A stretch of 64,000 nucleotides of DNA from Sabellastarte sp. h YS-2021 (lineage: Eukaryota > Annelida > Polychaeta > Sabellida > Sabellidae): assembly GCA_964017235.1 (NCBI GenBank), contig OZ024935.1, forward strand, positions 36,001,596-36,065,595, read 5' to 3'. The translations under genes were made by a program, and so were the position numbers. The notes below the pieces were generated by a model. The model was not told where the DNA came from. It saw only the letters and a list, made by a program, of their open reading frames with translations, and searched no databases. Shown piece by piece: positions 6,781 through 63,854 of this stretch (positions are counted from its first letter, which is position 1; the number at the start of each line of letters is the position of its first letter).

Positions 6781-7192
6781 ATGCAGCTGATATTTTGGTT
6801 AGTATTTCTGTTGGTACTAGCAGTTTCTTCAACTAAACATAACAAAAGGCCCAATAAAGTGAGAAATAATCAGGGTAAGAACAAAGTCAATTCAGAAATA
6901 AAACTTTTTGCCCTTCGACAGAGTGTTCATCCGTATGCTTTCAGGGCAATAAATTTTGATAATGATACATTTAGAGGCCCAGTGTCAACACATCTGAAAC
7001 AAATCCTGAGAGTATGTTTTGAATCAGAGGTCATCTTGGAATACACTAAAATCTCAAGTCAGTCACAAGACACAGAGTCTCTTATGAATGATGAACAAGT
7101 GGTATTTCCTGTGAGAAAACAGCTGCAAGATTTAGTGGTAGAAGCAGACATGTCTCGGGATTACAAATATATACCAGTGATCGAAAGTCCAG
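6781..7192 (+). CDS. Channel gene copy 1, exon 1: signal peptide and S1-like lobe
   Basis: The ATG is followed by a hydrophobic leader (MQLIFWLVFLLVLAVSS) and then a polar extracellular stretch with one N-glycosylation sequon (NDT, about residue 60). The donor is CCAG|GTGAGT at 7193. It ends one base into a Gly codon. The homologous exon at 63446-63854 starts and ends at the same points, which supports both start and donor. Confidence 0.85.
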
Positions 7193-10100
7193 GTGAGTAA
7201 CATTGTTGGCTTATTTCAACATCTTTCAAGAATATACAATATACTAGTCATAGAGAATATCATGTGAGTTATTCAACATCATAGCTTTTTTTTCAGCTTA
7301 GTTAAGTATATTCTAGCCATAGAAAGTCCAGATTACTTAGTATGTATCAGAACTAAAAAAATTGGGAAAGCTACATTATAACATTTTGCTTCAACTTTGT
7401 TAAAGTATGTATCAGTCATGGAAAGTCCAAGTTAAGTTATCATGCTTTCAATTTTTTTTCAAGTATGTATCAGTCATAAGAAATCCAGATGAGCTACACC
7501 ATAGCATCAAATCAAATCATTTCAAGTATTATATTAGTCATAGAAACACCATACTATTAATTTCAACCTCAAGGGATGTTTAGTACAGCTTAGTGGAGTG
7601 TCAGTGAATGAGGCACATTTCCTAATCACATGTTTGTTTCCTTTTTGATCCAAAATTATGGATCACAACTGTCTCTCATAGCATAACCAACTACTTGGTA
7701 TGGTTTTACCCCACAATTAAACTACCTGCCTTGCTATCAAACATTTTTAAAGAATGATTTACCTATCAAAATTTCCTGATATTCCCACTAGGTGCTGTGA
7801 TCCTGGTAGAAGATAAGAGCCAAGGGAAGTATATTTTGAAGGAATTCTTTCAGCAATGTTGGCCATTTGCTCTACTTGTATTCAGTTCAGCCCTACTAGC
7901 TGGCATCATTATTTGGATATTGGTAAGTACAATATCTCTTGTTGCATCATACTAATGAATTGGATTTCTGAACATATGACAGGCCTTGAAAATGAACAAC
8001 TGGCAGCTGTTTGTGGATGTCTTGTGGCATAACTCAGTGTACTCTGCTTCACTGTGTGCTACACTGAATAAGATTTAGTTTTATAAACTATGCACTAAAA
8101 GTCTTTTCACCAGCTTTCACAACTTGAAAAGATATGGCAATAACAGTTGAAAATGAACCTATCAGATAATATTGTTTAAGTTGAATTTTTGCTGTAAAAC
8201 CAATAAAACCTTGATCCCACTCAAAAGTTTACAATCTACTAAGAAACCATTATTTTCAAGGCTTTTTTTCTTTTTTTTTGTTAAGTGAAAGCCAAAATTA
8301 AAAATGCAATGTAAAATAGAGGGTAGCTAATATTATACTGGAAAAAAATTGTCTGAACAGCTAAGAAGGAAAGATTACATTTTAATTTTAATTTTTAAAT
8401 TTTAAATTAAATTGTGGGTAGCTGTGTATTAAATAAATTATCCTTGACATTTTCTATAACTCTCAAAAATTACAATACTGTCCATGTACTCCATGCTTCA
8501 GTTCATGCTTTAAAATTAAAAATACTATATGAATAAATTAAACTTGAATTTTGACACACATTATGCTCTAAGTAGGTTCTAGGCATGTCTGATATCCAAG
8601 TCTGGTGTTATAGATATTGCAATAATAACTGAAATTCTGTCAGGTATCTCATTGCTTTTTGCAGAAAATTTCTCATAGAAACTAAATGGTACTTTACAAT
8701 CAAACTTCTTGTGTATTTTTTTTTGTGAAAGTTTCCAGAATAATATCAGAGAAGTAATATCAGAGAAGGAAACAAGATTTAAGACATTTATGGTATGATG
8801 TGTAATCCCTGTTGATATGTTTAAAACAATTTGCCTTTGGAATTTGGTCCACTGTTTGGCCTAAATATCTGGCCAACATGCAGTTATTACTATGTCATAA
8901 CTCAATTTACCAATTTCAGGATCACCAGAGAAATACTGATGACTTTCCAGAACCCTTTCTTAAAGGTAGTTGGGAGGGAATATGGTGGGCTTTTGTAACC
9001 ATGACAACAGTTGGGTAGGTTTGAATCATATCAAGAATAAAACATCTGTCAGTATTGTGTCATGCAAAACTGAAAAAAATCCACATTTCCTGAAACTGAA
9101 GTAATTCAAATATAGTGAATAAAATTGTGTTTTATATATTGAACATATATTGGATAATCCTGAAGTAATTGAAATCATGAGACAAGCAAATGTAAGTGAC
9201 AACATAATCATTCAAATTTGTCTACTCAAAAATACAACAATCTGAATATTATTTGAAAATTGCATCAAAATACAGAATTTGATTTGGTATCATTTTTGTT
9301 GTCTTTTTAGGTTGTATTTTGAGACTTTTACAAAGTAAAAATAGTACAAAGTACCATTTATTTCACTCAATTTAATGACTAGTGACAATAACATGTTTGG
9401 TTCTCTAGGACTTAGATATGATATATTCAGTGTATTCTATTTTTGAGTGTATTAAAAGGTGATTGCAAAATTAAATAACAAATGTTTTTGCATAAATGTG
9501 AGCTAGATATGGGGATCGTTCCCCACGGTCTATACCTGGGCGTATCTTTGGACTACTGTGGATGTTTGTGGGTATCATCATGATGTCCATCTTCACTGCC
9601 ACCCTCACCCTGGCATTCGCTTCTGACCAGGCTGAAGAGGCTACAATTAATGGATCTATGGTACTAGTTTAAACTAAACTCACATATAATGACTACATTG
9701 TTTATGTCAATATATATATCTGTACACATTAAAATCAGAAGACTAATTTTGGATCAAAAACATGTAAAATATGTTTGACTGACTACATTTGCTGTTCTGT
9801 ATTCATGACCTTGAACTAATGTCTATGTTCAACTTTAGCGAAAACATTTGCCTTCAGATGAACTAATGAAAATAACTTTCAGATAAACTGATTTATCTTC
9901 TTGTTTGTAGTTAGGTGTCCTTCAGGGATCAAGAGAAGAAATCCTGGCAATCAAAGGTGGTGCTCAGGTTAAAAGTAGGTTGTAAACCATTAGATTTGTG
10001 AATCCTTATTTCCTATAAAAAAATCGTAAAAAAAAACATTGAAAATATATTGACAAAATCTCCGATATCTATAAAGATGGATTTATGATATATACAACTT

Positions 10101-13100
10101 CTTTTATTTCCAACTCATATTCTTTGGGTTTCACTTTCCTATAATAACAGGAATCTGGGATTAGTATTTTTTTAAAATAGCTTTCCACAATTAAGTGTCC
10201 CAATTCAGCAAGCTGGGTTAAATCAATGTCAGAGATCTATATAATATTCACATCCTACTCTATCTCAACATAGTCCAGAACATAATCCCCTACACAAATG
10301 TTCCGTTAGGCAGATGATTCTACCATTGCACTTCCCTATTTGCCTCCCTTACAAATAATGGAGTTTCATGAGACTAGCATGTTCAAAATTTACTCAACAA
10401 TACGCTTTACCCTTGGTTGACCACAGGAAGCTTCCAACCGGATTAAAACTTGAAAACTTATTACCTATGACATTCAGACAGCCGGGACTATCCATAACAA
10501 CGGTCACAGTTGATGACATTATTTAGCACTGGTGCAAGTACAAGCACCTGATAGCTTGGCTATGTGACCCAGTGAATCTATCAACTGCTGGCAAGAGCTC
10601 TTCCTCCATTTTTTGTTTGAACCAAGCCCCTTAAAGCAGTGAGTAGTCTGGCAAAGCGGGGAAGGCCAGGGAGGGCCTGTACTATTGTTGTACTACAGCT
10701 GTCCGGAGGTTAACTTGTGTCACCAAGGGGGTAAGATACACTGTCTGAGGCCATACTTCCAGAGCAAGCACTCTTATACAAATAAATCTGAAAAATAAAG
10801 TACAAAAAGTACGATGAAAAAGGGGTGTCAGGAAACATTGATACAAAATAAGAAAATTGTTGAGAAGGTAAGGTTAAGAATACAGAAAAATTAAAACTTA
10901 AGTTACATTCTCAAGAACTTTTGAGAGAGAAAAAAACAAACTTCTGGTAACAAATTAATGAAGAGAATAATGAAAGTCATAGAGTACAAATAATTACATT
11001 AATTGGGGAGAAGATCCCCCAGAGGATTATGACACTCCCCGTTTAGGTGGTTCTCGGTGTCTTGCCCCATGCATATTTTCTTCCCTGGTGGAAGGAGGCA
11101 TAACCTGCTGAACTGCAACAAAGGAACCTATATAATAAGAGCCTTCTTTTTTGTCTTGTCCAGCAACTATCTTTGAGGTAGAATCTGGTGAAAGTGTTGT
11201 GTGATTTCCAATGCCAGGTTTGCATAATTTGTTCTATTGAGATTCCCCCGTAGATGGTCTTTGAGGATGCAAATGCTCTAACATCATGGGGCCTTTACCC
11301 GAATGAGGTCCATGTCTGCATTATCCACCTTGGAGTAACAGAATTTGGAGGGTTTTTTAAATCCAAGACGAGAAACACTAAAGGACACTGAATATCCTTA
11401 GAGTGGCCCAGTTTGTAGGAGATAAACATTAATTGTCTACCCACTCTTGAGTCTTTGGCCCACTCCACTGAGGGCCCTTATGTCTTGAGAGTCTTCGTCG
11501 CACTTCAAGAATAAATAACCACTGGGGATATGACCTATGGGCCCTCCCTAGCTAACTGTTTTTTTGGTAAGGAAGGAGGATAAAAGGGAGAATTGGACTT
11601 GATCCCAGTTGCCCAGGCTTAAAGTTTTTTCATGTGTCCAGGCATGAATCTCGCTGCATTTCTTTCCTAAGGCTATGGCTAGTAGAAACACTGTCTTCCA
11701 GGTGAACAGGTGCCTCTTCTTTAGGTTCAAAGCTAGGTTGGGTGAGTCTCTGTAACACCAGTGACAGGTTCCATTTTGGTAAGATCCTAGAACTCTTGGA
11801 CTAATCCTTGTACAAGCTAGCAATCAATATTAGAGCTCTTTTTGTTCTTCTTGTAGCACGTTTTGAGGGTCTAACCACCTTTCTGTGTTATATCATCTTC
11901 TGATTCCAGGGGACCAGTGTGTCCAGACGGCACCAGATATTTCCCATGATTCTTGAGATGCCACTGAAAACGTCTCATATGTATCCTGTCCAATTTCATA
12001 GTCTTTTTCATTGATGCAAATAATCCAATGGTAGACATAAAAGTCCTTGCACTGATAACAGACTTCAAGAACTCGAAACAAAGTTTTGTCCACCTGTTTT
12101 GAGCGGGCTTGACAAGCACCAGATCTAGCAAAAAATGGTATCCTGGGAAGTCGAATCTTTGGGAGGGAATGAGTTCCGACCTTTTTTTAGGTTTACCACA
12201 AAGCCAAATCCTTCATTAAGAGAAGCAGTTTTTTTTGTCTGTTGGTTGCACTCTTACTTGGAGTGGGCAGAGATCAGTCAGTAGTCCAGGTATTGGTGTA
12301 TTTTGCTTCTTTGACAAGACTGGCAAAGATCAGTTAGCTGTGGCAATGCCGAAATAAAGGCGGGTAAACTAGTAAATAATGCCTTGGTGACAAAACCTGA
12401 GATACTTCTGCGACTGGGGATGAATGGACATATGCAGATAGACATAGGTGAGATCAGTGAAAGTGACCCACTCACTTGTGATGCTTGTATGGATTATTTT
12501 GTTCTATCTTGAACCTTGGAATGGCCAGGATTTTTTCAGGCAAATTAGGTTTATAACTGGTCTCCAGCGGTTGTCTGATTTTGATACCAGAAATAGGCAG
12601 CTGTAAAAACCTAGACTTTCTTCTTTTTGGATGATAGCGATTGGGCCTTTTGGTAGTAAGTCCTGAGAAGAGGTCAGTACCAGTAGAAGAAACACTTCAG
12701 TCTGTCTCCCACTGGCAGGTCTTATTGTTTTGAGGCTTGATAACTACACCATGAGACTGTACACAAGGAGTTGTTTCCCCCTCCTATGGGGATTGTACAC
12801 AAGGAGTCTCTTTCCCATTCCATGGCGTTGGAACACAGAGTCTTTAACTCTCTGATGAGTCTTTTCACCCTCTGGTGGGCACACCCGCGAGCCTAATCCA
12901 CATGGTTGTCTGAGCTTATTGTAAGTCCTCGTCCAGGGTTTGTGGAGAGCAAAAGAGTTTGAGAAATGTCATTGAGGAGGCTGCTGCTGCTTGCCACCAT
13001 GTGTGCTACACCCAAGGCCCCAACCCCTGTAACCGCCTCTGCCTCACCTGCGGTAACCCTGTGGAAGGTGGGAGAAGAAGGGTCTCTCTACACCATATAC

Positions 13101-16100: not shown

Positions 16101-19100
16101 CCAAGATTTGAAACATCCCCATAGCAAAAGAATGCAACTTCCTGCTGAGAAGAAGTTAGGCCGATCACAGCACTCTTCAACATTGTGGTATCCCTTTCCA
16201 CCCTGTCAAGTTGTTGATGCTTCTGCTTGACTACATCTACTCTCTGATCTAGGCAATCAACTGTAGACTTCAGCTCAAGTTCAGCTGTACTGGTTGAATA
16301 AACTGAACGGTTCAATTCTTCCACAGTGCGGAACAACAGAGTAACTTTGCTGTTGGTATCAACCTAGCAGATTCAAACTTCTCCACACACTTCTCCATCT
16401 TGGACATGTCATTCTGGATTTTGATCAGGACTGACCACATATCTTCAAGTCCTGGTTTACCATCAACTATTGGTCTGGAGTCTGAAGTTTCAGTTTCAAA
16501 TCCTGAAGTTTCCTGACTGGAAAAAATCTGATAGGATGAGCCCAACAACTCTACTTTTTGCCACTGCAACTTCTGATGATCAGTTGACAATCCGGACAAA
16601 TGCAAAAATTCTTTGTCAGGGAAAGCACACTGGGCATCTGAATCTTCATCGTTCTTCTCCTCGACCTCATGAAAATCCTGAATGCCAACCTGAACTTCAA
16701 GGTGTTCCTGACTGGAGTAAAACTTATAATCAGCTGACACATTTTTCTCACCAAATAGGATGAAACCTGAGTGCTGAAGCTTCTTAATCACAGAGTTGCT
16801 GACAACTTTGGACTTCTGAAGATCATGTAAGGTCAGGGTACCACTATTTTCTTTCCTCAGGTTCAAGATCCTGTCTGCTTTTGCTTCACCAATGCTTTTT
16901 ATTGACAATAAATCAGCTTTGGTTGCATCTTCAATGTGAACTGTTTTTGTTCCCACCAGTAGCCATTCAGGCTGTTTTTAGGTGACTTCACTAAATTCAA
17001 TCAATCAATTGACAAATACACGAAAATCAAAAACCAACTAGCAAAACAATGCCAAGTCAATTAATGAAAATTCAAGCAAATAACACACAAATCCTATAAT
17101 TTAACTTGCAAGACAGAGCAAAGTTAAATTGAATTTAATCAGACCCAATCTGCACGACAATGTAAAGATATAGGCCGAAGTACAATAAATAACTTGCAAG
17201 ACAAAGCAAAAGTTATTTAGCAAAAATCATAACTTGAAAATATCTGTTACAAATGAAATCAAGTAAGTAATAAATACTGTTCAAAATATTTTCACATTTA
17301 CAGAAAGTTCACTACTTTGATTTCCATTATTTCAAAATAGAAAATATATAATTTACCCTAGACCTTACTCAGATTAAATTTTATTTCAGTTATTGAAACT
17401 CAATAAATTTTAACCATGAAAGTTTTTATGCAATAAAAAAATTAAAATATTGTAAAGCTACAACAAAAAAGTTTTTTTTAATTGAAAAATCTATGCAATA
17501 AAAATACTACTACAAATTTTAACTAATATATGAAATCATGCAAACAATTTAAAAATAATGGTTCTTAATTACTGTTAGTAAGGGCAATATTCATAAAATT
17601 TCAATCTACAAATAATTAAAAATAATATTCAATATACTATGCAAAATTTAATTTGAATCACTAGAAAATTACTTCAAAATGCTACCAACAGAAAATTTAA
17701 TTACTTGAAAATTTACTAACACTTTACTAGATATATAAATATTTTACCACAATTATTGTCACAATAACTAGACAGAATTATTTATAATTTCTTTAAAAAT
17801 AGTTACTACAAATATACTAGAACAAATTCACTACATACACAGTACCAATAATATTAACTTTACTGAAAAATTACAGCTGAGCTGAACAAGACAGGTACAA
17901 AATTTTCAAATAACGGTGCTGATGACCAACAGAATATGTGACAAACAACATGTACACAATGGAACAACAGAAAAACTCGATCGATATGCACAAGCAAAAA
18001 TTACTGAGTTGTAACAGACAACTGACAAACAAACCGACCGATGGACAAACAATATATGAAAAACAATAATGCAGCAGGAGAACGAAATTTACACTGCTAC
18101 ATGCACAAATATGATATTTACAAATTATAAACAGCAATGCACCAAAATCTTATACTGCCGTATACCAAATATGCAATTTGAAAATAGAAAATATATTTGT
18201 GACAATAGTTGTTCAGAACAAAACATCTACAAATACTTTGCAAAATAGTAGATATTACATTGAAGTATGACGCCAAGATGACCTATTGTCACACTAAAAA
18301 TAAAACGAAAATTCAGGCTAACTATTGCCGATAATTCACACTAAGAATGATTGATGTGTGAATCAGAAATAATAGATTACTTCATCTAATACATATATAA
18401 GACTAAAATTATCAATAAAACATACAAAAACCTATTTTGTTCACCACAAAACACCAACAAAATTCAAATATATTTTAAATTCATGTGGTGGACGAAAATG
18501 GCAGAATTAACACAAATAAAGAAAAATCCTCACAAAACCAATTCCAGAATGCTGCGGGTCAATCTATCACACACTTCTGGTACCAGTGTTGTGAAAAGAT
18601 GTCACTAACCTTTTCAGATATCTGTGGATTCTGTGGTTGACACGGATGTGTCTGTCATTCTGATTGGCTAAGAGCAATTTCTAAACCGTCTAAAATACTG
18701 AATCAATGCAAAAGCTGTAGCATCAACTTCCCCATGCATTTCATATAAACAGAAGAAAATGTTTCTGGTTTTGTTATTTACATCAGTTACAGTTACATTA
18801 GTTTGCTTTGCTTTCGTGCTCTGACTATGCCAACCAGTCTAAAATTCTGCATTTAGACATTTTTTTCATGCTATATTCCTATTTCCTGTTACCTATTTCC
18901 TGTTACAAGCACTTCCTATGCTTCCGGTCGGGAGATGCTTTTCGTCACTTCAGTATTGGCCTATGCTAGACCACTGTGAAATATGAAATATGATTGCATC
19001 TGTCCATCAATAGAAAGTGTGGTCGCTTTATAAATTAGACTGCCATATCTATGTAATGTTACACATTACAATCCACCTTCATTGTGTACTGTTTTGTTAC

Positions 19101-22100
19101 TTATATTTCAATATAGATTATACTAAGCTAACTCACATGAAAGGAGATTTACTCGACAAGAAGATTGATGGAATTCTGTTGGATACCTACCACGCACGTT
19201 TTTCAGTGAAACTGATGACTAGACTTGAAGAAGCAGCATTTATAGAAGATAGTAAGTCAACTATACCATTCTATACATTACTGAATCTTTTCCATTGATT
19301 TGAGTTCCTTGTAATGGTGTACTTCACAATTTGAAAGTCCTAAGAATTTCAGTAATTATCATTAAAAAATTGTAATCTCTTCGACAACAATACCATCACA
19401 TAGTTTACAACAGCTGAGAAAGTTATGAAAATAAGTATATAAAACGTAACTTAAAATGCAACAAATAAGATTTCAGTAGCAGTTCTGAGGCTTTTCCTGA
19501 ATTTTTCATGCAGGTCACCCTAGGCCAATTCAATATCACTGCTGAACTATCTGTGAAATTGTCCATTTCGTGAAATGGACATGGAATTTGTCAATTTCAT
19601 GAAATGGACAACTCAACTGTCCATTTCATAAAATAGATAAATCCACAGCTTTTATGCCATCTATTTCATGAAATGGACAAAGTAATGTAGAAAATTAAAT
19701 TTTGTTCATGGCTCGACCTTTGCTAAAGGCTAATTATTTTATTTCTCAAGTAACTGACTACTATATACAGTACAATTGCAAACAAACACAGTGATCTGAG
19801 AACTAAGAACGATTATATAATAAAATGTCTGGCCACTGTTATGTACATAAGGTGTTTGTAATATATCTCAATTCACCTTCTATAAATTTTGTATTTTCAG
19901 TGAATTACCATAGAAGTATCTCTGCATTACATTACATTTAATTCACCAAAATCTAGTTCTTGATTACTGAACCTTGCCCACACTGATTAAGCTATCGGAA
20001 AAAAACATTGAAATCATATGATTACATACATAAAATATTTGTAAATTGTACTAACAATGATGGATGAAATTTCCATATTTCACATTTTTTTAAATGACTG
20101 TATGCACAAAAAAAAACGATTTCAAAAAAAAGATGGGACTTTATCCCACAATTGATATCGTAAGGTATTTTCTCTAAAATCTACTTTTTAAACTGCAGCA
20201 ATTAAGAACTTTCATAATGTAATGTGTATTTATCTTTATGAACTTGCAAATTGTTAGGAAGTTGTTAAATATGCGAAAATGTATACTCCTATTGCAAAAA
20301 AAAAATAAAATAAAATAAATAAATAAAGTAAAAATATAAAACATTACTGTTTACACATATCGCGTAATGTATTTTATTGGTGTGATATCAGACTTTTTCC
20401 TAGAAATGCTAAACTAATAATCTCTGTTGTGGAATTCACAGAATCTACATACATGTATTTATTAACTTATTAACTGTTCTTAACTGATGTAAGTGGCCAA
20501 TCCATAGAAAAAGGGTGTCACAGAATATCTGATTTCCAGAACTAAGGATACCCTCTGGCTTCATTTTACTTTTGACTCAACATCAATTTATTTGTCAAAA
20601 GTGGAACGTGAGTTTGGATGTAGAATAATTTAAAAACAATGTAGGAATGCTGTGATTATGCTTTTGAACTTTACAAGTGCAATGACAAGTTGCGCAAGAC
20701 TGTGATCTTGATTGCATAATTTTAGGCAACTGGGTTGTAAACTTGGCACTTTGAAACCATTGGGCGTTTAAAAATGGCTTGGTCGTTTTAAAACGACCAA
20801 ACAGATATTTTGGCCATTTTCAAAAACGTCTCAGATTTAAGTGATACACCTAAATAAATATTTATATATAAAAAGGGGGGTCTGGATATAATTTTAAATA
20901 TATATAATTTTTAAAAAAACTATGACATTATAACTGGACAAAACCTAGATGTACATTTTGTGTGGTATTCTTTTGAACTTTATTAGTCTTTAAACTTAAG
21001 GAAAAGCCTCAATGTGAGTTCGTACTCTTAATGTTGATTCGTTATCCCTTATTAATCCCTTTTATGCAGTCTACTCATCTACAAGTAAAACAGACCAACA
21101 TTTAAAGAGTACTAGAACAATAGGCACAAATCCAATTAAAGAACCTGACAATCGAATGAATATTTAAGGGTACAAAGAATTTGATTTATTTGGTTTCTGT
21201 AATTATGCAATGTCTGTTTAGGAGAGATTAAACCGAAATATATTGACAGTTATCAAATTGTAAAAAAAAGAAAAGAAAATCTTTATTAAAGCAAATACAA
21301 TTGGCTACTATGGAAATCCTTTCAAGTCAAAGGGTCACAGTAAAGGTCAACTAGTATATTTACTACTAGTAATTTTACACTTGTTTGTTACTTTTTAATC
21401 TTATTTCATGTATTAGACATTAGTTTTCTTTAATTATTAAAGCTCTATGGATAGTTATAATAAGCGCTATACAGTCCATATTTGATAATTAAAACAAACT
21501 TTATCTGTACTTTGATCAGTTAGGTTTTGAAATAGCCAGGCCATTTCTAAATCCATTGAGATTTTGAAATGGCCAACAGCCATTTTGAAATGGTCAGATT
21601 GTGAAACAGCCAGGAGCATATTAACTAAAAATTCCTTTCACTAGGTACATTCTTTGGAATCATCCTGCAAAATCAGACATATGAGATTCAGCAATGCTTC
21701 ATGCGAGAAACTTCAAAGTCAAAGGACAAATTGTTGAGGGACCTTTTTGAAAAGCGAGCCATTAGAAAGCAGGTCTGAATAAACCTTTTGTCCTTGTTTC
21801 AAAGTAAACAATGTTCACAAGTTAACAGATATTAATGCATTTCGAGCCCCTATTGTTGATTTTAATTTCAAATTGATTAATACACATAAGTTATGGTGTA
21901 AAAGAAAGAATTTTTTCTGACAAGAGATCTATATATCAAGAAAAAAGAAAATATTAATTGGTTAGAAAACTTAATTGCATTGAAGAGTGAAATATTCTAT
22001 AGAGCAAAGTGAAATTTATCCCCATTGTAGATTGTTTTATTTATAAAATTATCATTGCCTCTGGTTCCAAATACAAGTGAAAAGCAGGGGTGGGATAAAA

Positions 22101-25100
22101 TATGTTTTATTTACAATTAATTAGCATATATATATATTTGTAGCACACTAATGTTTATTTACAATTGTTGACATTCATTTACATATTCATATAAATTAAT
22201 TTATGCAATTTATTAATATTGTAATTTTTTTATATATGAGGGCACCTTAAAGTCGCCAACCCAAGTTTGGCACTTGCCAAAGTGTGAGCCAAAGGCCATC
22301 TTAAAGCAAGTGGATACAATCTACTAGTGACAGGGCGAAGCTAAGGTCACCCCAATGTTTACAAGAATGAAAGATGTGACCCTAAGGTCACCATAGGTTA
22401 GCATGAGTTTGAGGTGGCCTTAATGGTTGTTTAAGTTGATTTACAATTGAAAGCAGTTGTCAAATCTTTGTAAGGGTTAATTTTTTAAAATATTAGGTTG
22501 GTGAATTACAATATAACTGCTACAAGGAAAATTTGAAAATGAGAAAAAGTCCCCAAACCCCAACTAGTGAGAGGTAGGGATGTATAGTTGTCTCTTGAAG
22601 GTAGATGCAACCTGATCTGAACCCTGATGATCTAGGGTGATATACCTCCAGACGCATTCCGACGTCCAGGTGCCATGGCTTTGGATATGCTGTAAATCTA
22701 CATTAGCATTGAAGGCGTAGGTGGCACCTGAACGCCGGAAGGCATGGAAGGTGAGTTTAGAAGTGGCTAAGTTTAATTTTTTGAGGACTAGCCGAAAATG
22801 TCTCCTGACCTGTGTATCTGTTAGTGGAACCCAACCCCTGGAAGTCTTATACTGAAAGAGGGGGTGGTTATTAGAGCCTGGAGTGATAGCCAGTAAATTC
22901 TTAATAGCTGTGACTGGGCATATGGGATTAGAGCCTAAATGAGGAATTTTTAAAATTTTTACAACATTCCTGGTTTGCATTGTTTTTGACCATTTTATAA
23001 GGACTTGAATGCCGGGATGTGAAAAAATAATGTCAGCCCTTGCCAGATGGTACAGTGGAGAGAACTGGGGAGTGGTGTGAGGAACTAGATTAGATAAGCG
23101 TAGGAAAGAAAAATAAGCTAGGGTATACACTGCCTTAAAAACTTGACCCATATACATCGAATCACAGGCTCTCACAATTAACTGTAAGGTGTCAATATCA
23201 ATGATTTTTTTCAATTGGACTTTAAAGGGTTGGTGGAGAATCATGGCTTTGTGGAAATACTTAATCCTCTGGTCATCAAAAATCTTTGCAGAAATGCCAA
23301 ACAGAGATAATTTTGCTTTAATGGCTGACATGTGGTTGGCCATAGCCGATGGTGAGAATTGATTAGATTCTAAGAACTGTAAGTATGCTATTAAGATCAA
23401 AGGAGTAAGCTGGAAAATACTTAGCTTCATGAAGACTGTGAATGCTAGAAACAGCCTGAACATGCTAGTATAGTTTCTATCTGTAGCAGGTCTGAAGGCC
23501 ATATGGGTCTTCTGAAGGCCAAGGTGCAGTAATTTGACAATTGATGGATGAAGGCCTACAGAATAAAGGAACATTAAATGGACCAATCTATAGCAATATG
23601 ACTCTCATTAACGGTAGTCCATGTGTGGACAGGTAACAGATGACACAGGGTTGCATTTGCCATGGGCCTACTACCCCACCTGGACAGGAGGTCTGCAATA
23701 ATGTTAACTTTTCCTGGGATATGGGTGACTTTAAGATTAATATTCATGGACTGTAACTGACGCTTTGAACAGTACTTTTTATTGGTCCATTGGGAGCACA
23801 TATCCATAATCTCTTTGAGCTTTGCTGGTGGTATGGACATTGTAAAAGTTTTAGTGTCTATCATGATACCTAGGCAGTTCAAGGCCGTAGTGGGAGGTTC
23901 CAATTTTTTCTTAGAAATCTGGAAACCGAGTTCTGGCAAGAGATGACACAAAGCGTCAAACGAGGCGTCAATTTTACTAGGAAGGTCAATCCCAAGAATA
24001 TCATCAATATAATTGATGACGTCATAATTACTTTGATGCATGATATGATGCACAGCGTCACTTAAGCGTTGAAATAAAGCACTTCCGTTCCTGTACCCAA
24101 AAGGCAGGCACGTATCAACGTAATAACGGTCGTGACGTAATCATAAGAGGTCATACTCAAGGGGGTCTAACTTAACATGGCGAAAGGCACGACTTATGTC
24201 GACCTTATATAGCTTACAACCTCTGCCTAATGCCTTGACTTGATCAATAATAGTATCCACTGTGGGTAACTTAAGGACAAAAGGTGTGGTTAAGTACTGA
24301 TCCCTTGGTATACCTGCATTCACAGATTGACCCTGGGGGAAACTAAGGTAAATGATGACCCTACGAGCCGGAGCATTGGGTTTTTCCCTGGTCATCATGG
24401 GTGATATGTGCAAATTTTTTATAGGTTTGGTATCATAAGGACCTAAGATTGCATCATATTGAATTTCTTCAGCCAGGTAAGTGTTGATATCTTCAGGATA
24501 ATCTACAGCTGAAGGGTGATTAACTTCTTGACTATGTAGATTCCCTTCTCTGTCATAATCTAGAGGGAAACCAAATCTTATGAGAAGTGGCAACTGTCTA
24601 TCCCAATAGTCCTGAAGATAGTGATCCCAAACATCTGGTTTTAATTGTGACCTAAGAGTAATTTGACTTTGCAAGAAATTATATTTCTTAGACTCCTGTA
24701 CTTTAGTATGCAGTGTTATGGGGTCATCCTTACTTTGCACAGGGTTAACTAAGTTTGGCATAAGCTGCTTACCCAGAGGGATGAAGCCAAACTTAAATTT
24801 ACTTTGGGCTTCCCAAAGTTGGAGTGTTGGACAATCAGGTAACACATGCTTGTATGTTATGGACTTGTCCTTAATCAGCAGGGGAAGGTCATATTTAGAG
24901 CAAGCAGTGACCTTTGGTACACTTTGTTGAGACGTTTGATCTATTTCCTGGTTGGCCTTTACTGCCGCCTGTGATTTAGTTACCCTGTAGTTTGACTTAA
25001 CCATATCATGGCTTTGAGAGCTGGCACTGTCAGCCTTGGAGGAAACTGTTTCAACGTTTTGCTCAGAAACGACGGCGTCGACGGGCAGAACGTCATAAAT

Positions 25101-27575
25101 ATTTTTACAAACAACATTTGTGTGACCTTTATGCTGACTTACCTTGCTCTGTGCCTTGTTACCTTTAACTATGGTACAGATTGGCTTTGTACGCATGCAT
25201 TTGTCTTGAGGTACTTTTTGAGTACTTTTTACCTCCCTATCAGTGATATTCGCCTTATATTTATGGACTTGAGCACTGATTTTTGGTTGGTTTTGATGTT
25301 GAATGACCATTTTAGTTTTAACTTTGGCTTTACTGAGGACCTGAGCATAGGAGAGATTCGCGAATCTGTAGTAGTCTGCTCTCCAATTGCTACTGGGTCT
25401 AACTACATCACTTGAGTTATGTACAATTCTATCTTTAACTTTGGATTCAAATACTTGAGGATTCAATTTATTACTTGAAGCCTTACTGATATGGGAATTG
25501 ATAGGCACTGCAAATCTGCAGTGCCTTATTCGTTTTTTGAATCCTGACGCTTGTTTCTGCAATCTTTTAATGCATGTGAAAATCTTTTTCCCAAACTATA
25601 GCAGTGGGAACACCAGTGCTTATAAAGTTGGCCATTTGTAGTGTGGTCAGTTTTATGGCTGCACTTACCAGATTGAAAGTATTTACACATAACACCTTGG
25701 GACTCATTTTTTGTTCTGCCACTTTGACCTGTGCTTGAACTATTGGTGAGTACTTTTTGAGCATGTGCTCTTCTGAGACGGTCAAGTTTGTCAGAGTTTA
25801 GCCAATCTAGTTTACCTTCCTCCATTCTACAGAGGATTAGAGCATGTGCCCCTTTTGCTGAGGCCCAACCAAAATCTTGGGCGTCTTCCATTAAGTCAGA
25901 CATATAATCTAGCATTGCATTTTTGACCTTAGTACTTTTTTCCTCCCTAATGATGGCACAAAAACCTGCCATCCATTGGAAAGTTGTTAAACTGTCATAG
26001 GTTACTCTTGCTTTTGAGGTACCTGCCAGTACATAATTTTGAGGCCAAGGAATTTGCTGCTTAACTGTAATGTTATCATTAGTAGCTCTTTGTGACTTGA
26101 ACTTACCTTGTTCATTGATCTTTGTGAGTTCCTGAAGTCTGAGGTCAACAGCCTCCTGTATGTGTTTTGATGATTTTAAATATTTGACGGTGGGTATGAC
26201 GGCGTCGTCTCCAGCGTCACTGTCCTCATCACCATCTTGAGAGGGTGGACTGCTCACATTCAGGGGGCTGCTTGTAGTCACAGCTGATTGTACCTGAAGC
26301 TGTTCCTCAGTCCTGTCAATCCTCTGCTCAATTGCAGACAACCTACAACTAACAGCATTAAGCGCATTAAGAATCTGTGAACTTTCATCTTTAGTGTGAT
26401 CAGAAACAGTAGCCGAAGTACTTGAAGTACTTTGTTCCATTATCTGACATTTGCTGCCAACGGGCCGTTTGTGTTGACCATTATATTTTGAACAATGAAA
26501 TACTTTGGGCATGGTTACTATTTCCCACTATAGTAGCAATACAAGTTGATGGGGCAATACAAACAATACTAAGCAATACTACTTTGAACACGAATTACAT
26601 AATAGAATTCAATACTGACAAGTGAAACTCCCGTCCACTCACCTACATACAAGATTTAAAACATAAACAGAATACCTCCGTGATATGTACACTGTAGGAC
26701 GGCAATATGTCAACAAACTGAAATACTAAATGAAAATACTAATACTACGTTACTGAAAGCACCAATGACAACTATTACATAATAGAATTCAGTAATGACA
26801 AGTAAAAGCCCCCGTCAACTCACCCACATACCAAATTTAAAACATAAACAGACTACCTCCGTGATATGTACACTATAGGACGCCAATATATAAAACAGAC
26901 TAAAATACTAAATGAAAAATACTAATACTACGCTACTGAAGGCACAAAAGACAACATAAAATTTTTTACTGATACATAATACTGTAAAAATGGCGTCCTG
27001 TTAGTTCGACTTCCCTCTCAAGAGTGAAGAACTAATGGCTTAGGTGGGAAATTTTTAATGAAAGGTTAATGGTCATCCAATAGTATGATAGTAGGACAAA
27101 CAAGAAGTACCTTTATTAAGGAACTGGAGCAATGAAATGTGTGGTACTTCTTGTACCCCACCCCCACATTTCTCTACATTTTACCTTGAAATAATGTTTA
27201 ATTTTTGCAGAACAGCAAAAAATATTCAAGTTTAAAGTTTCACTGGACCAAGTTGCTGCTGTTCAGCTAATGTTCTCACTGACCATTAATTTCTGGTGTA
27301 ATATTTTAAAAGTTGTAAATTATTGCAATTTCCTGACAGTAACACTTTTCGTGTGTACAACTGCCACTTCTCCTAAAAATTGTTATTCTTTTATGAATTA
27401 CTTTAAGTTGCTGGGGCGAAAAATCAAAGAATCAACTGACACAGCTTTTAGAGGGATGACATATGCAGGGATTGCAGTCACAGTTTGTTGGGTTGTCCTG
27501 GGAATAGCCTGTTTGGTCTGGCAATATTTTCAGCAGCGCAAGATGTCAAACAAGATTCATTCTCTGAAGGGTTAG
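6781..27575 (+). CDS. Glutamate-receptor-like channel with K+-selective filter (8-exon gene model)
   Basis: Proposed exons are 6781-7192, 7792-7922, 8920-9014, 9507-9660, 9911-9974, 19117-19251, 21645-21772 and 27408-27575. All joins are GT-AG and in phase, giving 428 codons. Layout: signal peptide (1-17), S1-like lobe (about 20-155), helix M1 (161-181), P-loop WEGIWWAFVTMTTVGYGDRSP (199-219), pore helix (226-250), S2-like lobe (265-385) and helix M4 (392-411). S2 has LQGSREEIL and DGILLDTY, which align by eye with the iGluR segments holding the ligand-contacting Ser and acidic residue (Ser271, Asp308). The filter is that of K+ channels; the iGluR SYTANLAAF motif is absent. Known precedents of the layout are Synechocystis GluR0 and rotifer AvGluR1. 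Ligand and selectivity are inferred. The exon 8 boundary is the weakest point. AATAAA follows the stop directly. Confidence 0.72.
7160..7560 (+). repeat. Decayed tandem repeat of the exon 1 tail and splice donor
   Basis: The exon 1 end (ATACCAGTGATCGAAAGTCC plus AGGTGAGT) recurs about five more times at 55-90 base spacing. Later units read TACTAGTCATAGAGAATATC, TTCTAGCCATAGAAAGTCCA, TATCAGTCATGGAAAGTCCA, TATCAGTCATAAGAAATCCA and TATTAGTCATAGAAACACC, each followed by a T-rich tract and CAAG or CTTAG. Several units keep a GTGAG or ATGAG at the donor position. The same array begins after the second gene's exon 1 (63840-64000), so it predates the duplication. Confidence 0.7.
7792..7922 (+). CDS. 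Channel gene copy 1, exon 2: end of S1 and helix M1
   Basis: The acceptor is TTCCCACTAG at 7782-7791 and the donor TTG|GTAAGT. The split Gly codon is restored, giving GAVILVEDKSQGKYIL and then the 21-residue helix WPFALLVFSSALLAGIIIWIL. Confidence 0.8.
8920..9014 (+). CDS. Channel gene copy 1, exon 3: pore helix and first half of the filter
   Basis: The acceptor is CAATTTCAG and the donor GG|GTAGGT. It encodes DHQRNTDDFPEPFLKG and then SWEGIWWAFVTMTTV. The intron falls inside the Gly codon of TVG, so the selectivity filter is split between exons 3 and 4. Confidence 0.85.
9507..9660 (+). CDS. Channel gene copy 1, exon 4: filter YGD and inner pore helix
   Basis: The acceptor is GAGCTAG and the frame continues G-YGDRSPRSIPGRIFG, then the helix LLWMFVGIIMMSIFTATLTL and FASDQAEEATINGSM. 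The donor is ATG|GTACTA. YGDRSP after TTVG is diagnostic of K+ channel pores. Confidence 0.88.
9911..9974 (+). CDS. Channel gene copy 1, exon 5: start of S2-like lobe
   Basis: The acceptor is TTGTTTGTAG and the donor AAAA|GTAGGT. It encodes LGVLQGSREEILAIKGGAQVK. GVLQGS followed by a charged helix resembles the first strand and helix of iGluR S2. Confidence 0.75.
10430..10620 (+). repeat. Inverted terminal repeat of the DIRS1-like element (left)
   Basis: It is the reverse complement of 13738-13925 at roughly three-quarters identity by eye, with shared words GAAACTTATTACC (as GAAAACTTATTACC here), TTTAGCACTGGTGCA, AATCTATCA and GAGCTCTTCCTC. Confidence 0.6.
11043..11830 (-). pseudogene. DIRS1-like tyrosine recombinase remnant
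   Basis: The frame at 11823-11548 reads LNLKKRHLFTWKTVFLLAIA and LGKKCSEIHAW, matching the motif around the first catalytic Arg of DIRS1 recombinases, although the Arg itself appears to be replaced (GKKCSEIH for GKRRSEIH). At about 11300-11150 shifted frames give AHDVRAFASSK-like sequence, HWKSHNTFTRFYLKD, with the H-x-x-R block and the C-terminal Tyr. Interrupted, not functional. Confidence 0.65.
12278..12700 (-). pseudogene. DIRS1-like reverse transcriptase remnant
   Basis: The frame at 12695-12504 reads DLLPKGPIAIIQKEESLGFY, SCLFLVSKSDNRWRPVINL, the conserved N-terminal block of DIRS-type RTs. A shifted continuation at about 12470-12280 includes FTDLTYVYLHMSIHP and QKYLRFCHQG. The catalytic YxDD is not seen intact. 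Confidence 0.65.
12950..13600 (-). pseudogene. DIRS1-like gag remnant
   Basis: The clearest frame (13425-13006) includes SKAYADLVAYFISSLTNLVLL and RNDVYLHHAQPNQD, a pattern I associate with DIRS1 ORF1 proteins (two helices and then LLRRD..L). Its start is not preserved and the end runs out of frame. The assignment rests on this short match and on position upstream of the RT. Confidence 0.5.
13738..13925 (-). repeat. Inverted terminal repeat of the DIRS1-like element (right)
   Basis: Partner of 10430-10620. In minus orientation it is the 5' end of the element, upstream of the gag remnant. It ends near the ACCGGTGGTTT-like motif seen on the minus strand at about 13900-13912. Confidence 0.6.
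14563..14755 (-). repeat. 3' LTR, shortened
   Basis: It matches the two ends of 18587-18952: TTGTGAAAAGATGTCACTAA, GTGGATTCTGTGGTTG, CCTGTTACAAGCACTT and GGTCGGGAGATGCT. About 170 bases of the central part are missing or replaced compared with the other LTR. Confidence 0.7.
14825..15175. repeat. Minisatellite inside the LTR retrotransposon
   Basis: About six degenerate units carry ACAGTTCTTTGACATGTAGA then ACAATGTTGATAATCCCTCT, spaced roughly 45-75 bases. Units 1 and 2 (14826 and 14887) are nearly identical; later ones keep ACAGTT and AACAATGTT. It lies between the TatD fragment and the 3' LTR. Confidence 0.6.
15185..15469 (-). pseudogene. TatD-family nuclease, C-terminal fragment
   Basis: The frame at 15469 reads FGFTANLLQQDYHPELGKVV, QHLELDQILLETDSAYLIAP. 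After a shift near 15330 it continues HSKCSCNNPYGLEEVARRVA and QLKDTTVKEELQVTSQNTND. LLETDSPYL, NPYGL and the final helices are hallmarks of the TatD metal-dependent DNase/exonuclease C-terminus; the Asp of ETDS is a metal ligand. The N-terminal HxH and central His ligands are missing. It sits inside the LTR retrotransposon between gag and 3' LTR. Confidence 0.7.
15470..15728. mobile_element. MITE with GGGGGGCATGCCCCCC palindrome
   Basis: About 260 bases bounded by AGTGGATCCAGGGGGGTTCA on the left and, inverted, AATCAGGGGTTGATCCAGCC on the right. Near the right end is the 16-base perfect palindrome GGGGGGCATGCCCCCC (about 15620-15635). It separates the gag fragment from the TatD fragment. Both flanks hold ATTAT, possibly a target-site duplication. 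The superfamily is not assigned. Confidence 0.5.
15729..16956 (-). pseudogene. Gag-like protein: helix-hairpin-helix plus coiled coil
   Basis: Reading from 16956, MGTKTVHIEDATKADLLSI, KSIGEAKADRILNLRK and LTLHDLQKSKVVSNSVIKKL form a helix-hairpin-helix of the ComEA type in the first 65 residues. A Ser/Glu-rich linker and a long coiled coil follow, in three frames joined by shifts near 16330 and 16030. The last piece (15977-15726) is heptad-like (LHRDLDDLAEQVKDVKREVQ). A HHH plus coiled coil at the head of an LTR element is unusual for a gag, but the position after PBS and leader argues for it. A captured host gene is the alternative. Confidence 0.55.
16957..18569 (-). other. AT-rich untranslated leader of the LTR retrotransposon
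   Basis: About 1.6 kb between primer site and gag start, rich in A and T, with no supported frame. A minus-strand frame at 17871-18137 looks like random low-complexity translation. Confidence 0.4.
18570..18586 (-). promoter_or_regulatory. Putative tRNA primer-binding site
   Basis: The minus strand reads CTGGTACCAGAAGTGTG directly after the 5' LTR. TGG at this position is the usual complement of a tRNA CCA end. Which tRNA primes is not determined. Confidence 0.55.
18587..18952 (-). repeat. 5' LTR
   Basis: 366 bases. On the minus strand it starts TGAAGTGACGAAAAGC and ends CTTTTCACAACA, so it is bounded TG...CA. The direct repeat TATTTCCTGTTACC occurs twice near 18887-18908. Confidence 0.7.
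19117..19251 (+). CDS. Channel gene copy 1, exon 6: core of S2-like lobe
   Basis: The acceptor is TTCAATATAG and the donor GATA|GTAAGT. It reads NYTKLTHMKGDLLDKKIDG, ILLDTYHARFSVKLMTRLEE and AAFIED. LLDTY matches the position of the amine-binding acidic residue in iGluRs. It starts and ends in phase 1, fitting exons 5 and 7. Confidence 0.75.
19558..19682. repeat. Cluster of four GTCCATTTCATGAAATGGAC-like palindromes
   Basis: Near-perfect palindromes occur at 19561-19580, 19589-19610, 19619-19640 and 19657-19679, each of about 20 bases around TTTCATGAAA. They lie in intron 6, 300 bases after exon 6. No protein or RNA function is evident. Confidence 0.6.
20745..21605. repeat. Possible TIR element with GGCCATTTCAAAA ends
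   Basis: Near the left end are TTGGTCGTTTTAAAACGACC (within a 22-base perfect palindrome, 20779-20800) and TTTTGGCCATTTTCAAAA. Near the right end the inverted words ATTTTGAAATGGCCAACAGC and CATTTTGAAATGGTC occur. The arms are short and noisy, so the boundaries are approximate. Confidence 0.3.
21645..21772 (+). CDS. Channel gene copy 1, exon 7: end of S2-like lobe
   Basis: The acceptor is CCTTTCACTAG. It reads STFFGIILQNQTYEIQQCF, MRETSKSKDKLLRDLFEKRA and IRKQ; TFFGIIL resembles the FGIAL strand of iGluR S2. The donor GTCTGA is weak, and the frame reaches a stop two codons later if not spliced, so a truncated isoform is possible. Confidence 0.7.
22564..23586 (-). CDS. Tyrosine recombinase of YR element copy 1
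   Basis: 340 codons, open. It has an N-terminal SAM-like core-binding domain (about 25-115; TDRNYTSMFRLFLAF, ANHMSAIKAKLSLFG) and a catalytic domain with Arg163 (FSFLRLSNL), Lys201 (IKWSKT), His281-x-x-Arg284 (TFHAFRRSGAT), His304 (SHGTW) and the nucleophile candidate Tyr315 (CVWRYIT). The full R-K-HxxR-H-Y set is present, so the enzyme may be catalytically competent. In DIRS and Ngaro elements it integrates a circular DNA intermediate instead of a DDE integrase. It overlaps pol by 13 bases. Confidence 0.82.
   Translation of the reverse strand: MVHLMFLYSVGLHPSIVKLLHLGLQKTHMAFRPATDRNYTSMFRLFLAFTVFMKLSIFQLTPLILIAYLQFLESNQFSPSAMANHMSAIKAKLSLFGISAKIFDDQRIKYFHKAMILHQPFKVQLKKIIDIDTLQLIVRACDSMYMGQVFKAVYTLAYFSFLRLSNLVPHTTPQFSPLYHLARADIIFSHPGIQVLIKWSKTMQTRNVVKILKIPHLGSNPICPVTAIKNLLAITPGSNNHPLFQYKTSRGWVPLTDTQVRRHFRLVLKKLNLATSKLTFHAFRRSGATYAFNANVDLQHIQSHGTWTSECVWRYITLDHQGSDQVASTFKRQLYIPTSH
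23574..25562 (-). pseudogene. RT polyprotein of YR element copy 1, one nonsense codon and RNase H deletion
   Basis: A single frame runs from 25562 to 23574, broken only by TGA at 24138-24140 where copies 2 and 3 encode Gly (DLLG). It has an N-terminal spacer, WDHYLQDYWDRQLPLLIRFG, then RT motifs: NLHISPMMTREK, RRVIIYLSFPQG, LYKVDISRAFRHV (first catalytic Asp), LPFGYRNGSALFQRLSD, NYIDDILGI (catalytic YIDD-like box) and LNCLGIMIDT. After QLQS the frame jumps straight to INLKVTHIPGKVNIIADLLS, so about 190 residues covering the thumb and most of RNase H are missing in frame. The final RNase H Asp (ADLLSRW) remains. Confidence 0.75.
25526..26512 (-). CDS. Gag-like protein of YR element copy 1
   Basis: 328 codons, intact. 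The N-terminus has a Cys/His-rich start (MPKVFHCSKYNGQHKRPVGS), then a short coiled coil (SCRLSAIEQRIDRTEEQL). A conserved core (residues about 155-245) has WPQNYVLAG, TYDSLTTFQWMAGFCAIIRE, AMLDYMSDLMEDAQDFGWAS and AHALILCRMEEGKLDWL. A C-terminal zinc-binding region follows, with CKYFQSGKCSHKTDH and HWCSHCYSLGKRF. The core is shared with copies 2 and 3 (QWMVGFC, QWMAGFC), which defines it as the gag of this family. The stop lies inside the start of pol. Nucleic-acid binding is inferred from the Cys/His pattern. Confidence 0.75.
   Translation of the reverse strand: MPKVFHCSKYNGQHKRPVGSKCQIMEQSTSSTSATVSDHTKDESSQILNALNAVSCRLSAIEQRIDRTEEQLQVQSAVTTSSPLNVSSPPSQDGDEDSDAGDDAVIPTVKYLKSSKHIQEAVDLRLQELTKINEQGKFKSQRATNDNITVKQQIPWPQNYVLAGTSKARVTYDSLTTFQWMAGFCAIIREEKSTKVKNAMLDYMSDLMEDAQDFGWASAKGAHALILCRMEEGKLDWLNSDKLDRLRRAHAQKVLTNSSSTGQSGRTKNESQGVMCKYFQSGKCSHKTDHTTNGQLYKHWCSHCYSLGKRFSHALKDCRNKRQDSKNE
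26592..26951 (-). repeat. Two-unit tandem repeat in the 5' leader of YR copy 1
   Basis: Unit 1 (26592-26761) and unit 2 (26776-26951) both begin ATTACATAATAGAATTCA and share AACATAAACAGA, CTACCTCCGTGATATGTACA and ATACTAATACTACG, about 90% identical by eye. Such leader repeats could hold promoter or packaging sequence. Confidence 0.7.
27100..27154. repeat. 12-base inverted repeat near the edge of YR copy 1
   Basis: ACAAGAAGTACC (27100-27111) pairs perfectly with GGTACTTCTTGT (27143-27154) across 31 bases. It lies at the 5' side of copy 1 (minus orientation), about 60 bases before the candidate acceptor at 27210 of the channel gene. Confidence 0.55.
27408..27575 (+). CDS. Channel gene copy 1, exon 8: final helix M4 and C-terminus
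   Basis: The frame is LLGRKIKESTDTAFRGM, then the helix YAGIAVTVCWVVLGIACLVW and a basic tail ending at TAG (27573-27575). The chosen acceptor (TACTTTAAG at 27399-27407) joins in phase 0 with exon 7. The same frame is open back to 27213, and a better-looking acceptor, TTTTTGCAG (27202-27210), would need a different phase. The helix is solid; the start is not. Confidence 0.6.
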   Translation: MLGRKIKESTDTAFRGMTYAGIAVTVCWVVLGIACLVWQYFQQRKMSNKIHSLKG

Positions 27576-37863: not shown

Positions 37864-38519
37864 TGGGATTGTATTTTTTATTACATTCAATAACATGTTA
37901 CTACTAAAATGTTTGTTTGGCTACATCATAATGTACTAATATACAGTATTGGTCAACATAAAATATTTAAGTAACCATTAATAATAAGACACAGTTATAC
38001 TAAAAGATAAAGTAAATCACGAGGCCCAGTACTATCAAAATAATTACACTACAAGCCAACCAGACCAGGTGAAAATATATATAAGTAAAAGGTCACTATA
38101 AAACCCAAGGTCATAATATTAATGCTAAGGGACACCAAAGGTCCAAAGAACAACTTGGTTCACAAGGTGCAGCAAAATCACAAGCCTATCCCACCAATGG
38201 CCGAAGGCCAACGAGGCTGCATCCGAGTGAACCAAGACAATATAAACCCAAAGGTCAAATATGAGGCCCCAAGGTCACACCAATAACAGGGAGCCCGTAA
38301 AAGTAATGCCATCAAGTGACAAAGGACAACCTGTTTCCACTGTAAGGGGACGTAAATGGCCCAGCAAGCAATAAGAACTATAACAATATATCTATGAATA
38401 TATATGCACATATGTCCCCAACCCCCGATAAGAAGATGTGTACCATAGTATATATAATAGAATGGCATGTAAATGTAACAAACTAATGGTTGATACCGGT
38501 AAGAGGAGAAAGGCACTCC
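37864..38519 (-). repeat. Split direct repeat B1 of Ngaro copy 2
   Basis: Starts about 20 bases past the YR stop codon (38540-38542) in minus orientation and runs to the B1/A2 junction. Partner of 35734-36381. Apparent minus-strand frames here (38178-38543 and the like) also exist in B2 and reflect the repeat, not a gene. Confidence 0.85.
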
Positions 38520-38539
38520 CCAAGCACAGAGGTAGGTAG

Positions 38540-39480: not shown

Positions 39481-39524
39481 GGAAGCTGTCGCTACCCTAG
39501 GATCTAAAACATAAAATAAGAGTG

Positions 39525-42060: not shown

Positions 42061-42084
42061 GCATGCCCATCTTTACTCATTTTT

Positions 42085-42957: not shown

Positions 42958-43231
42958 CGGGCTGGCACCTTGGTGCCACCTTGGTCATTCCTGGGGGGAC
43001 CTTAAATTTCTCCTTTAGTTGTTACCACCATGCTGTTTGTAATCTGTCTGCTGATTGGCTGTGGCAGCTCCCTGTGTTAAAATCTACTGACCCTTCTTAC
43101 ATTTGCATTCTAGATCTGGAAGGGGCAACACTGAAAATTTCAAAATTAGTTTTTTCCATTTGTCACGTGTTAGGTTATTTTATCAAGTTTTTTTTTAAAA
43201 ACTATATATCAAGGTTTTAGTTCACTGACTT

Positions 43232-44450: not shown

Positions 44451-44707
44451 TTCACTAGACAGTTTGTTTCTAGGTATATTGGTCAAGTAAGATTGACAAG
44501 AAAACCATATCTGAAGAATTTTTAGTAGATACACCTACACTTTCCACATGGTTTAGTAAAGGTAATTCTTTTGCAAATATTCGGAATGGCAGATCCAACG
44601 CTCAGGTGACTGCTCAGAAAAAATGACTTCCGGTTTCGGCTGCCTGTGTTCATCATACCCCTGATAGGAATGCAAATGCCATGAAGAAAGTTCATAACTT
44701 TCCTTAA

Positions 44708-46980: not shown

Positions 46981-47029
46981 GTTCTGTTCTTCTTTATTTT
47001 CAGATCTACCACTTCTTGCAGCCCAGTTG

Positions 47030-63445: not shown

Positions 63446-63854
63446 ATGCAGCTGATACTTTGGTTAGTATTTCTGTTAATACTAGCAGTTTCTTCAGCTG
63501 AACATAACAGCATCGGTGCAGTGAGAAATAATCAGAGTAAGAACAAACTCAATCCAGGAATAAAACTTTCTGCCCTCAGACAAAGTGTTCATCCATATGC
63601 TTTTAAGTCAAATGAGTTTGAAAATGATACGTTTAAAGGCCCGGTGTCAAGCCATCTGGATCGAATCCTGGGAGTATGCTTTGAATCAGAGGCCATCTTG
63701 GAATATACTGACATCTCAAATCAGTCACAAGACACAGAATATTTTATGAATGATGAACAGGTGGTATTCCCTGTGAGAAAACAGCTGCAAGATTTAATAA
63801 TAGAAACAGGCATGTCTCAGGATTACAAGTATATACCTGTTATAGAAAGTCCAG
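63446..63854 (+). CDS. Glutamate-receptor-like K+ channel gene, copy 2, exon 1 (partial gene)
   Basis: The ATG frame encodes a signal peptide (MQLILWLVFLLILAVSS) and the S1-like lobe; about 75-80% of residues match copy 1's exon 1 by eye, with one codon fewer near residue 22. The donor CCAG|GTGAGT at 63855 and phase are identical to copy 1. The pore and remaining exons lie beyond the window. Substitutions are spread through the lobe while the frame, signal peptide, Cys (VCFESE) and sequon (NDT) are kept, which suggests a functional paralogue. Same inferred role: extracellular ligand-sensing lobe of a tetrameric channel. Confidence 0.8.

Follow-up and report, generated by a model that had tools for sequence, protein, structure and literature searches.

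Gene structure at the locus

The window, a stretch of 64,000 nucleotides on contig C11 (104 Mb) of a 1.79-Gb genome, contains on its forward strand a gene (6781-27575), called D here to distinguish it from its copies A, B, C and E and the partial loci F, G and H, whose eight exons, separated by seven introns that are all of the GT-AG type, join to a single frame of 428 residues. The exon joins, splice sites and kept frame of this model, as given by the first-pass annotation, were all reproduced exactly. Exon 1 (6781..7192), conserved in copies C and E and more distantly in A, B and F, provides the ATG, a signal-peptide-like segment (6781-6831) and, from about 6898, most of the S1 part of the predicted binding domain; an in-frame stop lies upstream of the ATG (6757-6759), and the signal-peptide-like start directly precedes S1. 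Exon 2 (7792..7922) encodes the end of S1 and the first pore segment M1 (7860-7922), exon 3 (8920..9014), with a homologous exon at all eight loci, the pore helix and the start of the selectivity filter (Thr211, Val212 and two bases of Gly213), and exon 4 (9507..9660) the remainder of the filter (G-YGD) and M2. The filter TVGYGD, residues 211-216 of the protein, consequently stretches from 9007 to 9516, the codon of its first glycine being split by the intron 9015-9506. The S2 part is distributed over exon 5 (9911..9974), with the codon of Ser271 at 9929-9931, exon 6 (19117..19251), with that of Asp308 at 19182-19184, and exon 7 (21645..21772), which encodes the C-terminal part including Cys348, and exon 8 (27408..27575, stop included) adds a linker, the hydrophobic segment M4 (27453-27524) and a short tail. 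Ser271 (in QGS) and Asp308 (in LLDTY) are found exactly where they had been located before.

Conservation with the neighbouring copies, C and E in the case of exon 7, revealed exon 7 and showed where exon 8 truly begins; a start of exon 8 at 27211, used in an earlier version of the model, was discarded, because in copy C the conservation of this exon does not extend upstream of 27408. In hydropathy, the D protein displays the signal-peptide-like start and hydrophobic segments near residues 161-181, 226-250 and 389-412.

Several further frames were noticed in the introns of D and in the remainder of the window. Intron 7 harbours retroelement-like frames on the reverse strand (22567-23604, 24144-25595 and 25529-26527), the first of which matches Phage_integrase just under the cut-off (6.7e-6), as in tyrosine-recombinase elements, and the other two of which have no Pfam match. 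Stretches at 38178-42984 on the reverse and 43229-47976 on the forward strand resemble these frames by eye in opposite orientations, with a weak Phage_int_SAM_5 match of the frame 46954-47586 in the latter. Also present are a DDE_Tnp_4 transposase fragment (59210-59572, reverse strand, 2.7e-14), a non-LTR element remnant with a zf-RVT match (49298-49822, forward strand, 6.9e-9) and, inside intron 5 of D, a frame on the reverse strand (16315-16977) that weakly resembles a helix-hairpin-helix family (HHH_3, 4.7e-5, below the cut-off). With respect to the assembly, all four Chitin_bind_4 (arthropod-cuticle-type) matches of the genome are on the small, high-numbered contigs C632, C472, C125 and C217, perhaps contaminants. 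Another small contig has a COX1 frame that is best translated with AGR as serine, as in most bilaterian invertebrates, and the protein may have a somewhat bivalve-like look. The haemocyanin family was of no use as a taxon marker, the controls being without a match as well.

A multigene family with a conserved exon layout

Searches of the genome with the D protein and with copy B identified four further copies on the same contig, namely A (35.867-35.886 Mb), B (35.912-35.920 Mb), C (35.954-35.966 Mb) and E (36.065-36.083 Mb), all assembled with eight exons except B, in which the start exon is absent. Exon 1 of E, the next tandem copy, is still inside the window (63446..63854, forward strand), its other seven exons being located beyond the window end. 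Locus F (C11, 39.249-39.276 Mb) is partial with the filter exons present, and at C1, 119.09 Mb (locus G), and C6, 94.25 Mb (locus H), the filter region alone was seen. Exon 1 of copy B has a second match upstream of copy A (C11:35864094-35864189), which is stop-bearing and perhaps represents a decayed exon.

The splice phases 1,0,2,0,1,1,0 are identical in A, B, C, D and E (B without the start exon), and TVGYGD is kept at 8/8 loci found, always divided over the same pair of exons. E is 77% identical to D, C 71%, B 39% and A 36%; comparison of the A/B with the C/D/E group gives identities of 63-73% in the pore, 22-28% in S1 and 27-35% in S2. Median dN/dS is 0.46 for D-E, 0.40 for D-C and 0.35 for E-C, and all 200 codon bootstraps of each pair remain below 1 (600/600 in total), whereby three of the ten pairs are covered and the distant pairs are saturated at synonymous sites; dN is also smaller than dS in S1 and in S2 separately. 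These three close pairs are under purifying selection. Because of the copies with the same layout, the further loci with filter exons and dN/dS below 1, the eight-exon model is beyond chance, and D is confirmed, from DNA alone, as a real gene at the sequence level; a chance frame or a pseudogene is ruled out by the conserved exon layout together with purifying selection.

A K+ channel filter in a glutamate receptor-like pore

The D protein matches the Pfam families Ion_trans_2 (54.2 bits, cut-off 22.5, E 1.4e-14), Lig_chan (40.7 bits, cut-off 30.8, E 2.7e-10) and, over the cut-off, Ion_trans (E 2.4e-10), all of which are matched by each of the five copies, and the pore passes the Ion_trans_2 and Lig_chan cut-offs in 5/5. 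The pore is thus homologous to those of both K+ channels and iGluRs, and a K+ filter with Ion_trans_2 homology is placed between S1 and S2. The order S1-M1-P-M2-S2-M4 with TVGYGD in the P-loop, as given by the first-pass annotation, is supported. From the signature sequence, the pore is predicted to be selective for K+. M2, the equivalent of iGluR M3, bears FTATLT where iGluRs have YTANLA. A plain K+ channel gene misread through exon joining is ruled out by the Lig_chan match and the binding-protein S2.

Relatives were sought in prokaryotic genomes (one scan), in the PDB and in the animal's own genome. The prokaryotic scan delivered 23 loci, the 11 best E-values of which all belong to GluR0-type proteins of Bacteroidetes; a profile of four of these proteins retrieves the GluR0 domains 2pyy (2.8e-24) and Slr1257 (2.9e-17) from the PDB, and alignment of the family with five of them by hhalign yields a probability of 99.7 and an E-value of 3.5e-25 over residues 48-317 at 25% identity, anchored by the pore. 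A search of viral contigs gave one match, which was not used. The pore comparison, tree and AU test comprise 10 GluR0-type loci out of the 11 (L063, truncated by the end of its contig, is left out), 6 bacterial K+ channels taken from the 12 other loci of the same scan, 6 of the 8 K+ channel loci of the own genome and 3 iGluR loci. The D pore scores 63-81 bits with the 10 GluR0-type proteins, 40-51 bits with the 6 bacterial and 45-50 bits with the 6 own-genome K+ channels, and 24-34 bits with the 3 own-genome iGluRs.

NCBIfam contributes weak K+ channel matches in the pore and nothing else. Single-sequence searches of the PDB with D put K+ channel pores on top, and filter and pore helix are K+-channel-typical, so that D could be seen as a chimera, an animal ionotropic receptor with pore exons taken from a K+ channel of its own genome; grouping with those channels is not rejected by the AU test (p 0.174). 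Such an origin is nevertheless very improbable, as the pore scores higher with the GluR0-type proteins than with any of the 12 K+ channels tested, these 12 channels constitute one clade of the maximum-likelihood pore tree that excludes the family (98.6/98), and M2 has the iGluR-like FTATLT with the Lig_chan cut-off passed.

The position of the family among the GluR0-type and iGluR sequences of the tree is weakly supported (65.3/56). The AU test rejects none of the five constrained placements, K+ channels included (p 0.585 for grouping with all K+ channels), and it is only the scores that favour a GluR0-like ancestry. Among prokaryotic, PDB and own-genome sequences, the closest relatives found are, by these comparisons, the Bacteroidetes GluR0-type channels. 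The suggestion of a lineage that arose independently of GluR0 does not fit well with GluR0-type proteins being the best matches over S1-S2 and in the pore, although the tree is compatible with other origins. That bacterial proteins are the closest relatives found would also be expected if an ancestral animal had acquired a bacterial GluR0 gene by horizontal transfer and this gene had later gained introns and an M4. This route is considered unlikely: eukaryotic relatives, AvGluR1 among them, lie outside the comparison set, and the seven introns and an identity of only about 25% to the GluR0-type proteins speak for a great age of the family. The domain of AvGluR1 is absent among the 39 PDB matches of the binding-domain profile and among the 60 listed with the GluR0-type profile.

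Other genes of both kinds were noticed in the genome. Lig_chan occurs in frames of 653-733 aa at C1:86.61-86.66 Mb, C5:12.25-12.39 Mb and C11:28.44 Mb, apparently intronless iGluR/IR-like genes that are partly clustered, and several close-set K+ channel frames of about 284-315 aa at C6:76.95-77.12 Mb represent a possible local expansion.

A probable split binding domain

A profile of the binding domain without the pore, constructed from the five copies, retrieves 39 sequences from the PDB with E-values up to 10. Of these, 38 are named as amino-acid-binding proteins, transporters containing them or the Nostoc GluR0 domain (E 1.3), the remaining one being named a lytic transglycosylase; three of the 39 have E-values up to 0.001, led by AncQR (7.4e-7). 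The match spans the end of S1 and S2. Aligned alone with its bacterial GluR0-type counterpart, S2 scores above 40/40 column shuffles and is recognisable from its sequence as an amino-acid-binding-protein fold. S1 alone is not above chance against bacterial S1, with 2/40 shuffles equally good, a result repeated with six copies (4/60 as good) and three copies (1/60) and without a signal in global mode; against the PDB, S1 alone gave nothing significant, with one unrelated chain at 0.8, and the predicted fold of its exon-1 part has a mean pLDDT of 55, too low to be informative.

With SBP_bac_3, one of the profiles proposed at the outset, S1 of copy A matches positions 6-64, the first half of the profile, in register (E 0.0091, under the cut-off), which is the only Pfam match of the A binding domain, and the binding domains of B, F and D alone have no SBP_bac_3 match. 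As the D binding domain alone gives irrelevant weak matches in Pfam, the best at 0.0035, an E-value of about 0.009 is unconvincing on its own. The identity of S1 as a binding-protein lobe is consequently weakly supported, and a two-lobed S1/S2 domain in the D family is likely, the calculations showing its second part only. S1 had been described as short; with about 110 columns in the family versus about 101 in the bacterial GluR0-type set, this description is not supported.

Downstream of S2, D possesses the fourth hydrophobic segment M4 (389-412); on inspection by eye, the last exon of each of the copies A-F encodes a hydrophobic segment. An ANF_receptor-like amino-terminal domain was not found near D, the best candidates listed being 41 genome matches of which one is on C11, at 60.4 Mb; this search rules out that such a domain in the neighbourhood of D was missed.

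A putative ligand pocket without the arginine clamp

In amino-acid-gated iGluRs, an arginine binds the alpha-carboxylate of the ligand and an acidic residue of S2 its amine. The pocket was compared in an alignment of 17 proteins, the 5 copies, 10 GluR0-type proteins and 2 iGluR frames from the own genome (2 of its 3 iGluR loci), in which residue 308 is Asp and residue 271 Ser or Thr in 17/17. Both residues thus occupy the columns of iGluR/GluR0 ligand contacts, as had been read by eye. The canonical arginine that could not be placed is truly absent: its column is Met in D, E and C and Thr in A and B, as opposed to Arg in 10/10 GluR0-type proteins and 2/2 own-genome iGluRs, and copy F has no Arg in that stretch of S1 either. 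Arg126 of D lies two columns past this position and is Gln in E and C, Asp in A and Arg in B. Lys113 is invariant in the five copies and faces a gap in the GluR0-type alignment; Tyr52, equally invariant in the five, corresponds to Tyr or Phe in the bacterial GluR0-type proteins. All five copies have Cys79 and Cys348, which the bacterial GluR0-type proteins lack; the usual topology would place the two cysteines in lobe 1, so that they may form a disulphide specific to the family.

Two readings of this pocket compete with a ligand-gated channel of unusual specificity. An ordinary amino acid might still be held by another basic residue such as Lys113 or Arg126, which would make D an amino-acid-gated K+ receptor like AvGluR1 and GluR0. 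The retained Asp308 and Ser/Thr271 and the invariance of Lys113 are in line with this, as is, according to the available text on AvGluR1, the response of that receptor to amino acids with chloride as a co-activator (PMC12226733); with Met or Thr in the Arg column of all five copies, Gln or Asp instead of Arg126 in C, E and A, and a place of Lys113 in the pocket that its position opposite a gap does not fix, this reading is nonetheless rather doubtful. Alternatively, the much diverged S1 and the loss of the ligand-binding Arg could indicate a constitutive or modulatory K+ pore on which the binding domain persists as a structural or regulatory relic and ligand gating does not occur. We regard this as improbable, as dN is below dS in S1 and S2 of all three close pairs, Asp308 and Ser/Thr271 are kept, and diverged binding domains over a conserved pore better fit a diversification of ligands. 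Indeed, a multigene family in which the pore is conserved and the binding domains have diverged suggests that its members are sensors tuned to different ligands.

Proposed function and significance

D is, with good probability, a subunit of a K+-filter member of the iGluR superfamily, a ligand-gated K+ channel with an unusual pocket. Its ligand-binding domain, divided between S1 and S2, would be on the secreted side, presumably outside the cell and without an amino-terminal domain, and would be connected to a two-helix pore with an inverted re-entrant loop bearing TVGYGD, followed by M4; the K+-selective pore would consist of four subunits. When a ligand binds, the S1/S2 clamshell would close around it, pull the pore open and hyperpolarise the cell. 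The pocket retains Asp308 and Ser/Thr271 but not the Arg that clamps the alpha-carboxylate, and because of this loss a plain amino acid in the usual pose is an improbable ligand; amines or other small molecules are candidates.

A more far-reaching proposal, possible but tentative, is that the genes constitute a chemosensory-type multigene family of inhibitory ligand-gated K+ channels in a non-rotifer animal, with pockets free of the amino-acid clamp that sense amines or small molecules. If this is true, K+-selective iGluRs would be an old animal lineage rather than a rotifer oddity, and the D family would bring inhibitory members into a receptor superfamily known for excitation. The view that excitatory glutamate receptors are descended from a combination of a K+ channel with an amino-acid-binding protein rests, in the available text of two sources, on GluR0 and, in eukaryotes, on AvGluR1 (PMC11479355; PMC12332018); a multi-copy animal family with a K+ filter, M4 and an intron inside a filter codon would offer several natural intermediates for comparison, and the absent Arg makes the choice of ligand directly testable.

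Comparison with known systems

Unlike classical and voltage-gated K+ channels, the D family possesses after the pore an S2 that matches amino-acid-binding proteins. Many protostome ionotropic receptors (IRs) lack the ligand-binding Arg, and IR pores are not known to carry TVGYG. As described in the available text of one study, many IRs resemble the D family in being devoid of an amino-terminal domain and in building lineage-specific multigene families (PMC2924276). With the metazoan iGluRs of the AMPA, kainate, delta, phi, NMDA and epsilon classes, the family has Lig_chan homology, M4 and probably the split binding domain in common, as well as the Asp in the column of residue 308 in both own-genome iGluR frames, but differs from them in the K+ filter, the lack of an amino-terminal domain and of the Arg, and FTATLT instead of YTANLA. 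The available part of a survey of the Pacific oyster reports 12 iGluRs of 794-1224 residues, none of the size of D, and in a search of open-licence papers the rotifer was the only animal for which such a gene was found described; relatives that have escaped annotation or publication could well exist.

The bacterial GluR0 (Synechocystis Slr1257) and the K+-filter Group 1 prokaryotic receptors share with the D family, according to the text available, the arrangement S1-M1-P-M2-S2, the K+ filter and the lack of an amino-terminal domain (PMC2950845), a combination that in the same text was then known only in bacteria (Ger et al., 2010). The Bacteroidetes GluR0-type proteins have in addition a similar S1 length and a profile match over the whole length. 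On the other hand, D is an animal gene with seven introns, the hydrophobic segment 389-412 after S2, where GluR0 and Group 1 receptors are without M4, a pocket that lacks the Arg, and Cys79 and Cys348 of its own. AvGluR1 of the rotifer Adineta vaga, compared here by description only, combines, as far as the accessible text goes, the eukaryotic iGluR layout including M4 with a K+ filter, as does the D family (PMC12226733; PMC11479355; PMC12332018). It responds to glutamate and other amino acids, chloride being the co-activator (PMC12226733, available text), whereas the D family is without the ligand-binding Arg. In the best reading of its sequence, the D family would be a variant of the kind already known from GluR0 and AvGluR1.
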